Assembly (NCBI RefSeq): GCF_006539725.1
Contig: NZ_BJNO01000015.1
Coordinates: 62,001 to 126,000 of the forward strand
DNA: 64,000 bases
Direction: 5' to 3'
Source of the DNA: Klebsiella terrigena
GTDB taxonomy: Bacteria; Pseudomonadota; Gammaproteobacteria; Enterobacterales; Enterobacteriaceae
Program-made: the position numbers and the translations under genes
Shown here: positions 30,947 to 35,155 of the stretch, piece by piece
Layout: the number at the start of each line of letters is the position of its first letter
Numbering within the stretch: the first letter of the stretch is position 1
The notes under the pieces: generated by a model
What the model was told of the DNA's origin: nothing
Database searches by the model: none
Seen by the model: only the letters and a program-made list of their open reading frames with translations

Positions 30947-31033
30947 ACCGAGGTGGTGGAATTGGTAGACACGCTACCTTGAGGTGGTAGTGCCCTAACG
31001 GGCTTGTGGGTTCGAGTCCCATCCTCGGTACCA
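30947..31033 (+). tRNA. leuU: tRNA-Leu (anticodon GAG)
   Basis: 87-nt class II tRNA with encoded CCA. The acceptor stem is ACCGAGG / CCTCGGT, the anticodon stem CTACC / GGTAG surrounds GAG (30981-30983), there is a long variable arm (GCCC taac GGGC), and the T-arm has TTCGAGT in its loop. The first pair is A-U. The 3' 18 nt (31016-31033) plus one flanking base recur 4.1 kb downstream with one mismatch (see the repeat at 35137). Confidence 0.96.
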
Positions 31034-31034
31034 A
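31016..31034 (+). repeat. direct repeat copy 1: 3' end of tRNA-Leu
   Basis: The final 18 nt of the tRNA plus one flanking base match 35137-35155 at 18 of 19 positions in the same orientation. Repeats of this kind at tRNA 3' ends typically mark the ends of integrated elements. The intervening 4.1 kb contains argG and three genes not found here in E. coli. Confidence 0.8.
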
Positions 31035-31041
31035 TATTCCG

Positions 31042-31073
31042 AAAAAAAGACGCTGAAAAGCGTCTTTTTTTTT
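31042..31073 (+). terminator. intrinsic terminator after tRNA-Leu
   Basis: A 13-bp perfect stem (AAAAAAAGACGCT / AGCGTCTTTTTTT) with a GAAA tetraloop and a T-run begins 8 bp after the CCA. It ends the secG-leuU transcript. Confidence 0.92.
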
Positions 31074-31178
31074 GCCTTAAATCGACGGCTGTTTATTTAT
31101 AAATAACTCTCCGCTGGCCTTGATCCCATCCAGGTCGCTAAAGTCGCGCTCATCTATTTATCAGAGGTGAGTAACGCA

Positions 31179-31580
31179 ATGAAGCATTTCAGGCTGTTTA
31201 TCATTGCCGGCGTTCTGTGCTTGTCCGGATGTAGTACCACGCCAGCGGCGGATCCGGTGGAGACTATTAATGCGCTGGCGGTACCGGTAATGCATAGCGA
31301 CGTTCAGTCCGCAGGACAAAACTCTCAGTCAATTACCCGCTGCTTTCAGGATAACTCGGTGCTGATTGGCAGCCTTAGCCGGTCATTAAAAGACAACTAT
31401 CTGCAGGATGTGGAGAGAAAGGATATCTTCGATAAGGATAGCGATGCCTATCACGTCTACAGCGCGCTCACCAAACTCGAACAGATGTCGGCGATGAATG
31501 AGGTCTACCGCAAAGAAAATAATATTGCCGGACTAGAAGAGATCAATAAGGTACTGAAGGCCGTTCCCCTGGCGGCGTAA
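31179..31580 (+). CDS. putative lipoprotein of unknown function
   Basis: A 133-residue protein I do not recognise. It has a lipoprotein signal peptide (MKHFRLFIIAGVLCLSG) with lipobox LSGC and lipidated C18; Ser-Thr after the cysteine suggests outer-membrane sorting by the usual +2 rule. The mature part is polar and largely predicted helical, with one more cysteine (in TRCFQDN) and a charged segment around VERKDIFDKDSDAY. The start at 31179 follows AGAGGTGA by 8 bp. It lies between tRNA-Leu and a converging yfaZ-like gene, where E. coli has yhbX, so it is accessory relative to E. coli. The -35/-10 is not clear. Confidence 0.8.
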   Translation: MKHFRLFIIAGVLCLSGCSTTPAADPVETINALAVPVMHSDVQSAGQNSQSITRCFQDNSVLIGSLSRSLKDNYLQDVERKDIFDKDSDAYHVYSALTKLEQMSAMNEVYRKENNIAGLEEINKVLKAVPLAA

Positions 31581-31618
31581 GTGAGGGATCGCCGGACGGC
31601 AATCCCTGCTGATAACGA

Positions 31619-32170
31619 TCAGAAGCGGAAGTTGAAGCCGGCGTAGGCGCCGTCGGCCAGCGTATTGTCACGATGGCTGTTTTTGCCCGCCATATCCATA
31701 TAGCGATAACCCGCTTCAATACTCAGCGACTTAATGACGTTTATTCGCACACCCGCGTTAGCTTCAACGTAGTCGTCTACGCCGCTGGACATGGAGTCCG
31801 GAGAGTAATAGGCCTCCCCGAAGAGGGTGAAGAAATCGCCGAGCGGTAATTGTGCCCCGCCGCCAAGCGCGATGGCGTAACCCTCATCGCTATCCTGTGG
31901 ATTGAGGTAGAGCGCTTTGCCACCCATGGTCAGCAGAAACGGGCCGAGGTCAAAGTTATAGCCCATACCTAACCCTGCGATATCCCCGTCGTTATCGCTA
32001 TGCGCCCAGCTGCCGTTGAAGGTCATGCCCGGATCGTCTGCGTTAAAGCTGGCGGAAAGATGAGTAAACTCTTCCCCCGCCTCGCCGTGGAGGTTAACCG
32101 ATGCGCTAGCGGCGCCGCTGGCGCAGAGCGCCGCGACGAGCAGAACTGATTTTGACGTGAACATGCTCAT
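31619..32170 (-). CDS. YfaZ-family outer membrane protein
   Basis: Predicted outer-membrane beta-barrel of 183 residues with a signal peptide cleaved after ASA (about residue 23). The mature protein has alternating hydrophobic strands, aromatic girdle-like residues (YSP, YRYMD, YAGFNF) and a C-terminal phenylalanine, as in small barrel proteins. I recognise it as the YfaZ family from its overall pattern (alternating GMGYNFDLGPFLLTMGGKALY segments), with moderate confidence. The function of the family is unknown. The ATG at 32170 is 8 bp downstream of AAGGA. A terminator-like hairpin lies just upstream of this ribosome-binding site. Confidence 0.8.
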   Translation of the reverse strand: MSMFTSKSVLLVAALCASGAASASVNLHGEAGEEFTHLSASFNADDPGMTFNGSWAHSDNDGDIAGLGMGYNFDLGPFLLTMGGKALYLNPQDSDEGYAIALGGGAQLPLGDFFTLFGEAYYSPDSMSSGVDDYVEANAGVRINVIKSLSIEAGYRYMDMAGKNSHRDNTLADGAYAGFNFRF

Positions 32171-32187
32171 TGTTAGTTCCTTCAGGT

Positions 32188-32215
32188 AAAAAAATACCCG
32201 ACACGAGCGTTCGGG
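32188..32215 (-). promoter_or_regulatory. terminator-like leader hairpin before the yfaZ-like gene
   Basis: On the minus strand, CCCGA (32215-32211) pairs with TCGGG (32201-32197) around a 9-nt loop, and TATTTTTTT follows directly (32196-32188). The U-run ends 17 nt upstream of the ATG, so the structure sits in the 5' leader. It could be an attenuator or the terminator of a separate small transcript. Confidence 0.5.
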
Positions 32216-33396: not shown

Positions 33397-33417
33397 GAAA
33401 GAGTAGATGAAAATAGA

Positions 33418-34761
33418 TTATTTGTCTCTATTTTCCAAATTCTCAACCTGCGGCAGACCGGTGGTTGAAGACGCGGTGAGCAGGCCGGATTGTGCGTAAC
33501 CGAACAGCTTATCGCGGGTATCGGTGATATCCAGATTACGCATGGTCAGCTGGCCAATACGGTCTTCTGCGGAGAACATTGAGTCGCCTTTCTCCATCGT
33601 CAGACGCTCTGCTTTATAGGTCAGGTTGTCGGAGACGGTGTTCAGAATGGAGTAATCATTGCCGCGACGCAGCTCCAGCGTCACCTCACCGGTAATCGCG
33701 CTCGCCACCCAACGCTGCAGCGCATCACGCAGCATCAGCGCCTGAGAGTCAAACCAGCGTCCCTGATACAGCAGGCGACCCAGCTGACGCCCGTGGGCGT
33801 GGTACTGCTCAATGGTATCTTCGTTATGGATGCCGGTCAGCAGACGCTCATAGGCAATGTGCAGCAGCGCCATGCCCGGCGCTTCATAGATGCCGCGGCT
33901 TTTTGCTTCGATGATACGGTTTTCAATCTGGTCGCTCATGCCAAGCCCGTGACGGCCGCCGATGCGGTTTGCTTCCAGCATCAGCTCCACGTCATCGCTG
34001 AAGGTTTGGCCGTTGAGCGCGACCGGATGACCCTGCTCAAAGCGAATGGTCACTTCTTCCGCCGGGATCTTAACGCTCTCATCCCAGAACTTAACCCCCA
34101 TGATCGGGGTGACGATTTTGACGCTGGAGTTCAGGAATTCCAGGTCCTTCGCTTCGTGGGTTGCGCCCAGCATGTTGGAGTCAGTGGAGTAGGCTTTCTC
34201 AACGGACATTTTGTAGTCAAAACCGCAGGCAATCATAAACTCGGACATTTCCTGACGTCCGCCGAGCTCATCGATAAAGTCGCTATCCAGCCACGGTTTG
34301 TAAATTTTCAGCTCAGCGTTGGTCAGCAGGCCGTAACGATAGAAGCGCTCAATATCGTTGCCTTTATAAGTGCTGCCGTCACCCCAGATGTTAACGCCAT
34401 CTTCTTTCATCGCGGCAACCAGCATGGTGCCGGTAACGGCACGACCGAGCGGGGTGGTGTTAAAATAGGTCAGGCCGCCGGTGGTGTTATGGAATGCGCC
34501 GCACTGGATAGCGGCAATGCCTTCAGCAACCAGCTGTTTACGGCAGTCGATCAGACGAGCGCCCTCGGCACCGTACTCTTTGGCGCGGCGAGGAATAGCA
34601 TCGTAATCCTCTTCGTCCGGCTGGCCCAGGTTAGCGGTGTAGGCGTAAGGTACCGCGCCTTTTTTACGCATCCACAGCAGGGCGGCACTGGTATCCAGTC
34701 CACCAGAGAAAGCGATACCAATACGTTGACCAATCGGGAGATGCTTAAGAATCGTCGTCAT
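33418..34761 (-). CDS. argG: argininosuccinate synthase
   Basis: Joins citrulline and aspartate with ATP to make argininosuccinate, the penultimate step of arginine synthesis. It has 447 residues, the long form found in E. coli (many bacterial enzymes have about 400). The N-type ATP pyrophosphatase P-loop AFSGGLDTS is at residues 17-25, followed by the [15 protein letters not shown] segment. The upstream region carries three ARG-box-like sites. The gene runs opposite to its flanking tRNA genes and lies within the tRNA-Leu repeat-bounded segment. Confidence 0.97.
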
Positions 34762-34874
34762 AAAATAAAACCCTGCTAGATAGACTGTTGTGAGTTCGGT
34801 TTACCAGGTCCAGAACCTGTCCCATTTGACTATTCCGTTTGCCATTGAGGTTCAGGGTCATGCTTAAAAACCTT

Positions 34875-34892
34875 TATGTATAACCATACACG
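34875..34892. promoter_or_regulatory. ArgR operator (proximal ARG box) of argG
   Basis: TGTATAACCATACA (34877-34890) fits the ARG-box framework TGnAT-N4-ATnCA exactly at all fixed positions and is centred 122 bp upstream of the argG ATG. It is close to where a promoter is expected, although I could not assign a clear -10. A weak CRP-like sequence (TGGCG-N6-TCACG, 34922-34937) lies further upstream. Confidence 0.65.
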
Positions 34893-34956
34893 CCGGTCTT
34901 CTCGCGCTGTCCATGCCAAGGTGGCGTAAAAATCACGTCAAATGGGATATGTCCCT

Positions 34957-34995
34957 ATTGCATGTTTATGCACTAATAGTGAGTTTTCATTTAAT
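34957..34995. promoter_or_regulatory. tandem ARG boxes upstream of argG
   Basis: TGCATGTTTATGCA (34959-34972) matches the ARG-box framework completely; TGAGTTTTCATTTA (34980-34993) matches with two mismatches and begins exactly 21 bp downstream, which is the phasing of paired 18-bp boxes with a 3-bp spacer that binds one ArgR hexamer. The pair is 82 bp from the proximal box, close to eight helical turns, and lies about 100 bp upstream of the metY promoter on the other strand. Confidence 0.65.
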
Positions 34996-35091
34996 CATCT
35001 TTTATGGATGACAGGAAGTGATTCATTGCTTTTTTGCTAAAAAAGGGCGAGATGCCAGCATAAACGGTAACCGGACAATGTGAAAAACATG

Positions 35092-35121
35092 TTGACAAAA
35101 TATAGGGTTTATCAATACACT
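35092..35121 (+). promoter_or_regulatory. sigma-70 promoter of the metY-rimP-nusA-infB operon
   Basis: TTGACA (35092-35097) and TACACT (35116-35121) with an 18-bp spacer. The start would be near 35128, so the transcript would begin just before the tRNA-Leu 3' remnant. The rest of the argG-metY gap (34762-35212) is described under the ARG boxes, the repeat and the hairpin. Confidence 0.7.
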
Positions 35122-35136
35122 TTACCACGATTTTAT

Positions 35137-35155
35137 GTCCCGTCCTCGGTACCAA
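35137..35155 (+). repeat. direct repeat copy 2: isolated tRNA-Leu 3' end
   Basis: GTCCCGTCCTCGGTACCAA is the T-arm 3' side, acceptor 3' strand and CCA of tRNA-Leu(GAG) without the rest of the gene. It matches 31016-31034 at 18 of 19 positions; the single difference (A31021 versus G35142) changes the T-stem partner from GTGGG-compatible to ACGGG-compatible. It lies in the metY operon leader. Confidence 0.82.

Follow-up and report, generated by a model that had tools for sequence, protein, structure and literature searches.

The segment discussed here lies between two transfer RNA (tRNA) genes, leuU and metY, in 64,000 nucleotides (nt) of the Klebsiella terrigena genome (contig NZ_BJNO01000015.1, positions 62,001 to 126,000). 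This whole stretch is called the window, and positions are counted from its first letter. The segment (31016..35155) contains argG, the gene for argininosuccinate synthase. In our judgement it is probably the remnant of an element that integrated into leuU, delivered argG and displaced the native, short-type gene. Insertion into leuU itself is close to certain, delivery of argG by this insertion is likely, and rewiring of the metY operon by the same insertion is a good hypothesis. An earlier note on the window had claimed integrase-type insertion into leuU, and this claim was supported by empty sites in relatives, by the position of a leuU remnant and by element-like signals at both ends. Genomes and loci are given by our own codes (G and L) where needed.

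The intact leuU gene, tRNA-Leu(GAG), was called at 30947..31033 on the plus strand by ARAGORN and Rfam RF00005, and is taken as the insertion target. Its 3' end forms one copy of a direct repeat (31016..31034, GTCCCATCCTCGGTACCAA), and the second copy lies at 35137..35155 (GTCCCGTCCTCGGTACCAA). Read directly, the copies are identical at 18 of 19 positions on the same (plus) strand, and no tRNA was called by ARAGORN at the second, which confirms the 19-bp repeat with one mismatch and without the rest of a tRNA gene described in the earlier note. The pattern TCCCRTCCTCGGTACCAA had exactly two matches in the whole genome of 5,513,545 bases, namely the two window copies. With up to three mismatches the 19-mer of 31017-31035 matched twice in the window as against a mean of 0.02 in 100 shuffles, none of which had two matches, and a chance origin of the repeat was rejected on this basis. 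We read the first copy as the attL side of an attachment (att) site pair and the isolated second copy as the attR side, that is, the displaced original end of the tRNA gene. It is followed by a stretch (35156..35212, plus strand) that matches the spacers of empty sites in length and sequence, presumably the ancestral leuU-metY spacer. Next comes metY (35213..35289, plus strand, ARAGORN), the initiator tRNA-Met gene and first gene before rimP-nusA-infB. The segment thus has the hallmark of a genomic island, an intact tRNA gene at one end and a repeat of its 3' end at the other.

Empty sites, with leuU directly before metY, had been pointed to in the earlier note as a check on the insertion, and they were found in relatives. 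A search of 197 family genomes for the leuU end, spacer and metY start gave a match in 73, covering both kinds of site. We compared 160 loci, consisting of 40 metY loci and 120 stretches listed by a pattern that requires bases typical of empty sites. Among the loci listed, 141 of the 160 were empty (25 of the 40 metY loci and 116 of the 120 stretches, the latter not a frequency, as the pattern favours empty sites). The other four stretches were two filled sites (L235 of Shimwellia, and L314) and two cut by the end of the locus. Buttiauxella, Pantoea, Erwinia, Serratia, Yersinia, Hafnia and Dickeya are among the records with the uninterrupted site. The leuU-metY spacer at the 141 listed empty sites was 56-61 nt long in 135, 48 nt in five and 91 nt in one.

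Filled sites were defined as sequences with long-type argG beside metY; there were 39, window included. The remnant was present with 0-1 mismatches in 31 of them, 57-58 nt before metY, and with small indels in a further five. The remnant of an Escherichia coli record likewise has small indels. The DNA 3' of the remnant resembles that 3' of leuU in empty relatives, for example AAATCCCAGCAGTATTTGC as compared to AAATCTTAGCAGTATTTGC in G296. The filled state is common to 27 genus codes and the E. coli record, so the event is not, as the earlier note had it, specific to the lineage of the window. Drift of the leuU T-stem after the duplication, also proposed there, fits the comparison: leuU has ACGGG/CCCGT at 129 of the 141 empty sites listed and GTGGG/CCCAT at 12. 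As E. coli leuU also has the CCCGT end, the GTGGG/CCCAT of the window leuU is probably the derived state. The paired change from ACGGG/CCCGT to GTGGG/CCCAT was also seen in many filled loci, reflecting several origins or movement between lineages; the T-stem change is one that happened more than once.

The argG of the window (33418..34761, minus strand) encodes 447 residues and matched NF003779 with 908.9 bits (E = 5e-274), above the curated cut-off of 657, and is therefore of the long type. Long ArgG over the cut-off was found in 62 of the 197 family genomes, and another 89 had weaker matches (short type or lower); one of the 62 (G291) had a second ArgG match under the cut-off. The long and short types share 27-30% identity, and the long type is patchy across Pseudomonadota (49 of 397 genomes). 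Flanking regions were fetched for 61 of the 62 long-ArgG genomes, that is, all except G424. In every short-ArgG genome with a fetched locus (20 of 20), argG lay inside argC-argB-argG-argH, opposite argE, whereas argCBH lacked argG in all 12 long-ArgG genomes tested, of which five were leuU-type (that of the window included) and seven had long argG elsewhere. The argB-argH gap in these genomes was 73-255 nt (73 nt in the window genome), with no ArgG match between the two genes. E. coli has the same arrangement, argE/argC-argB-argH without argG. The suggestion that a long ArgG apart from the other arg genes fits an acquired gene was borne out by these loci. With the native gene in place in sister lineages and gone in the recipient, the long ArgG is a xenolog. 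As in other xenologous displacements of biosynthetic genes, a distant homologue takes over from a native operon gene; unlike in those, the probable vehicle has left an insertion scar that can be seen here. Passages of PMC1382215 infer argCBGH to be ancestral and note that argE accompanies argCBH in both E. coli and Yersinia pestis; the source of the present argG is not stated in them, and the word 'horizontal' does not occur in the text of that article as available.

The trees disagree in the way that foreign origin would predict, and this was another check named in the earlier note. A species tree was built from concatenated RimP, NusA, GlmM, FolP (and FtsH), and the leuU-type genomes grouped together in it, with 32 of 34 in one clade (support 99). 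G341 and G247 were placed near the base of this clade, together with G112 and G296, which have an empty site and short ArgG. The ArgG tree had 64 rows, without several same-genus rows and the reduced genomes G322, G366 and G378, which were included in another ArgG tree. All enteric long ArgG formed one group (100/100), and the leuU-type proteins together with that of G374 (98/92) were nested among long ArgG of lineages that are distant in the species tree, the nearest being G263/G394 (97/73). The closest species relatives of the core clade have short ArgG and empty sites. Vertical descent of the core argG was rejected because of this conflict, with the proviso that support is weak for some branches at the foot of the core clade and for some within the non-leuU ArgG. 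G374 (L101) carries a core-type long argG at another place, with its own argCBH lacking argG, and its species neighbours have short argG in argCBGH; we regard its gene as a probable separate transfer. One genus holds both types (G228 long, G400 short). Together, the placement of G374 and the difference between G228 and G400 indicate that long argG has moved more than once.

The left end of the segment carries a hairpin terminator directly after leuU (AGACGCTGAAAAGCGTCTTTTTT, 31048..31070, plus strand; AGACGC...GCGTCT followed by T), like those of tRNA-Leu elements. With a generic rule (stem of 5-9 bp, T-rich tail), 159 loci with leuU were examined before 39 more empty sites were added. Among these loci, a hairpin stood 3' of leuU at 53 of 57 separated sites as compared to 1 of 102 empty sites, and the lone empty-site hairpin had a 5-bp stem of other sequence. 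Two of the four separated sites without a hairpin were in fact empty sites cut by the end of the locus. As the empty sites show, the hairpin at leuU was gained; those at leuX and at the gene for tRNA-Leu(UAA) may be gained or native. The pattern AGACG-N4-10-CGTCTTTTTT had two sites in the window genome, one after leuU (found on both strands) and one after leuX. At leuX (L388, 4708-5828, G000:C9) the similar hairpin is followed by an open reading frame (ORF) of 278 residues, a truncated integrase with only the arm-binding and central domains, and this site may be a second tRNA-Leu element remnant of the genome.

Matching integrases were found at leuU in other genomes. The integrase of G248, used as query, had matches in 94 of the 197 genomes (E up to 1e-130); among the 30 best integrase loci a tRNA-Leu gene was present in 28, and 27 of these 28 had a hairpin behind it. 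In 12 integrase loci scanned for the tRNA-Leu type, four were GAG (leuU), two UAA and six CAA. The integrase lies directly 3' of leuU in G248, G364, G382 and G407, and those of G364, G382 and G407 are 85, 83 and 78% identical to that of G248; Pfam confirmed the G248, G382 and G407 proteins, and the 85% identity that of G364. In G248 (L344 2704 to L345 3010) an island of about 20 kb sits at leuU, with the integrase beside the tRNA gene and a copy of the leuU end at the far end. Beyond this copy comes a further hairpin, which gives the impression of an older insert behind the island. The leuU gene is a hotspot with many different inserts.

At the right end, just inside the remnant, we predicted an outward promoter, TTGACA-18-TACACT (35092..35121, plus strand), pointing at metY. 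Two promoter-like sites were found in the region where 1.0 was expected, and the score of this one was unmatched by any of 400 random 95-nt window stretches. It recurs, 120-122 nt before metY, in 34 of the 36 filled sequences counted, a number that omits three same-genus loci (L075, L080 and L090). At empty sites there is no space for it. Judged by where it lies and by its sequence, it is probably P-1 of the metY-rimP-nusA-infB operon. According to passages of PMC6511841, the core elements of P-1 match the consensus completely and P-1 is the most cold-responsive promoter of the operon; these passages do not give its sequence, so we infer the identity. Where that article treats the P-1/P0/P2 region, leuU does not occur in the available text, and an origin by leuU insertion is proposed here. 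In PMC3105977, as far as its text was available, metY-argG figures in a list of divergent gene pairs that have one CRP site, and CRP is reported to act on the pair.

The remnant itself is well preserved. Across the 39 filled sequences, the 40 nt at -80 to -41 before metY, which include it, are conserved at 0.91-0.95 per 10 nt, and the 100 nt before them at 0.37-0.81; the region of the putative ArgR boxes further up reaches 0.97. Positions 35133-35172 of the window, the remnant with the bases after it, are among the best conserved of the argG-metY region, which is odd for a dead att site. Such conservation suggests that the remnant has a present use.

Taken as a sequence of events, an integrative element would have entered the leuU 3' end through site-specific recombination, at a time ancestral to the core Enterobacteriaceae. 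The left junction would have rebuilt leuU, and the original end of the tRNA gene would have been pushed to the right junction, together with the 57-60 nt that separate it from metY. Close inside the left end of the element there would have been a terminator, and close inside the right end an outward promoter. Its cargo would have included an argG of the long type, equipped with two ArgR boxes and akin to the long argG found in other lineages of Enterobacterales. Later loss of the native short gene would have turned argCBGH into argCBH, and the integrase and most of the cargo would have been lost since. The repeat, the empty sites, the gene replacement, the disagreement of the trees, the conserved ends and the matching integrases at leuU elsewhere are observed. 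Transport of argG by this same element, a single event for the whole clade, arrival of the promoter with the element and its identity with P-1 are inferred. A wider proposal is that a built-in terminator and an outward promoter make insertion of leuU elements before an essential operon tolerable, and that P-1, the argG-metY control and the att remnant, which lies close to where the P-1 transcript would be expected to begin, are domesticated parts of the dead element that delivered argG. We regard this proposal as evenly balanced between being right and wrong.

Several observations weigh against delivery of argG by one insertion that left this segment. No integrase was found by family scans among the four clear genes of the insert, small or overlapping ORFs being outside the scan. 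Three of the 39 filled loci (G310, G371 and G272) have no recognisable remnant, and two of these three also lack the TTGACA promoter. These two are L104 and L105 (G310 and G371), where the DNA nearest metY is like that of relatives with an empty site, which would fit recombination. In the species tree the filled genomes fall slightly short of a single clade, as G112 (Buttiauxella-like) and G296 are among the earliest branches, although a single clade of filled genomes was not rejected in the approximately unbiased test (p-AU 0.338). Inserts at leuU without argG have a promoter at the same place in G263, G394, G411 and G291 (TTGACA) and in G346 (TTGACG), so argG may have been added to an insert already in place, or the core and the other inserts may not be independent. 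At the right end of the intact G248 element no clear promoter of this sort was seen. It is missing as well from the argG-less leuU inserts of G284, G372, G374, G282, G294 and G382, and in those of G126 and G338 it lies about 18 nt nearer metY. Finally, no fragment of the leuU end was found beside long argG elsewhere in 22 of the 24 loci searched; the other two are leuU-type loci, where one match is the remnant of G425 and one is metY itself.

The alternative that survives best is that an element without argG entered leuU first, and that the long argG came into the occupied site later, by homologous recombination or on a second element, and displaced the native gene. The argG-less inserts with the shared promoter position speak for such a course, as does the use of leuU by many different inserts. 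The earlier note had held that remnants in lineages without argG between leuU and metY would refute its reading, and degenerate leuU remnants do occur in such lineages. As they look like other insertions at the hotspot, they do not refute the insertion, and they leave room for entry of argG into an already occupied leuU site. Against later entry, the filled loci of the core have no gene in common except argG, which is the sole ORF of at least 70 residues in 15 of them and adjoins the right end, with a 79-residue ORF between in G279 only. We therefore consider later entry unlikely. Of the earlier claim that argG was acquired on, or carried past by, an element, the insertion and the foreign origin of the gene held; its arrival on that element is the part that later entry competes with.

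A single, very old insertion into leuU, dating back to the ancestor of the order and undone again in many families by precise excision that recreated the empty site, would explain why the right-end promoters and left-end hairpins of distant lineages are alike. It would require many independent precise losses to produce the empty loci listed, and the near absence of hairpins from empty sites, where the only one is of other sequence, speaks against it as well; we consider it very improbable. Tandem duplication of leuU with decay of one copy and ordinary rearrangement bringing in argG, for which it could be said that the remnant is a piece of a tRNA gene, is hardly credible and was rejected, since only the 3' end is left, at the distance from metY that the intact leuU has in empty relatives, argG-less inserts end at the same place and both ends carry element-like signals.

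The remnant of a leuU element that delivered argG thus remains our preferred reading, and the other genes of the segment are consistent with the cargo named in the earlier note, all of which was present. A small lipoprotein of 133 residues (31179..31580, plus strand; cluster k1) had no NCBIfam or Pfam family match. A YfaZ-type outer-membrane barrel (31619..32173, minus strand; PF07437, 4e-57; cluster k3) is followed by an IprA-like winged-helix regulator (32622..33251, minus strand; PF15977, 8e-26; cluster k2), which reached 93 bits with NF008810, far under the cut-off of 359, and is only a relative of that family. We class these three genes as lineage-specific cargo: the set was found in the window and seven other loci, and partially in two more. 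In the E. coli record the order is secG-leuU-yhbX-argG-metY-rimP, with yhbX, annotated as a phosphoethanolamine transferase of the Sulfatase family, instead of this set. When the window cargo was compared with 100 other loci, only the IprA-like gene matched, in G341, itself a leuU-type locus. From the related cargo set beyond the window genes, an OmpA-like gene also matched in G341, and the remaining matches concerned yhbX of E. coli and, from a different insert, a large protein. The claimed loss of the integrase agrees with the four clear genes, as far as the scan reaches. With no integrase found beside the att site, the window segment is a scar and not an element; integrases at leuU are present in the four other genomes named above.

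Upstream of argG lies a pair of ArgR (ARG) box-like sites, 3 bp apart (34957..34995, no strand assigned), which agreed at 26 of 32 informative positions with what we take to be the ARG-box consensus; the best of 300 random stretches reached 22. Scanning of 22 of 24 other long-argG loci gave a box pair scoring 26-29 in 12, two of them leuU-type. These scores were thus found in 10 of 20 non-leuU long argG loci, and the other 10 scored 17-24, with the Yersinia genomes at 22-23. As box pairs occur in part of the family, the gene seems, for that part, to have travelled with its operator. Among the catalogued neighbourhoods of long argG elsewhere there was no clear donor: a DJ-1-like gene was nearby in eight loci, of which seven also had xylH- and xylR-like genes, and a group of FAD oxidoreductases in five. 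A phage source was also considered. In a scan of viral contigs, the leuU 3' end was found in three stretches, each time as the end of a full tRNA-Leu(UAG) gene and with no attP, and this source was dropped. The three (L340, L341 and L342) belong to phage contigs in which tRNA genes form dense arrays, and their tRNA-Leu(UAG) shares its 3' end with leuU.

Comparable tRNA-gene islands, of the kind found by Islander and TIGER, have integrases that we take to be tyrosine recombinases of the P4 type. The likeness to these islands lies in insertion at the 3' end, an intact gene on one side with a fragment on the other, and an integrase at leuU in relatives. The segment differs from them in that no integrase was found here and that a gene of core metabolism, fixed throughout 27 genus codes, forms the cargo, and integrase-dependent island finders would therefore probably miss the scar. 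In its available passages, PMC4383910 describes tRNA-gene islands as marked by a regenerated gene and a displaced fragment. The kind of event is thus already known, and our literature search of open-licence papers gave no report of such an insertion for argG.

In E. coli, argG is a textbook case of a biosynthetic gene outside its ancestral cluster, and a replacement that arrived at a tRNA gene is offered here as the reason. The scar of the insertion is still readable across the 27 genus codes. By-products of the insertion may include a promoter of an essential operon for translation factors and the known pairing of control between argG and metY. Old integrase events of which no integrase survives can be read by comparison with empty sites.

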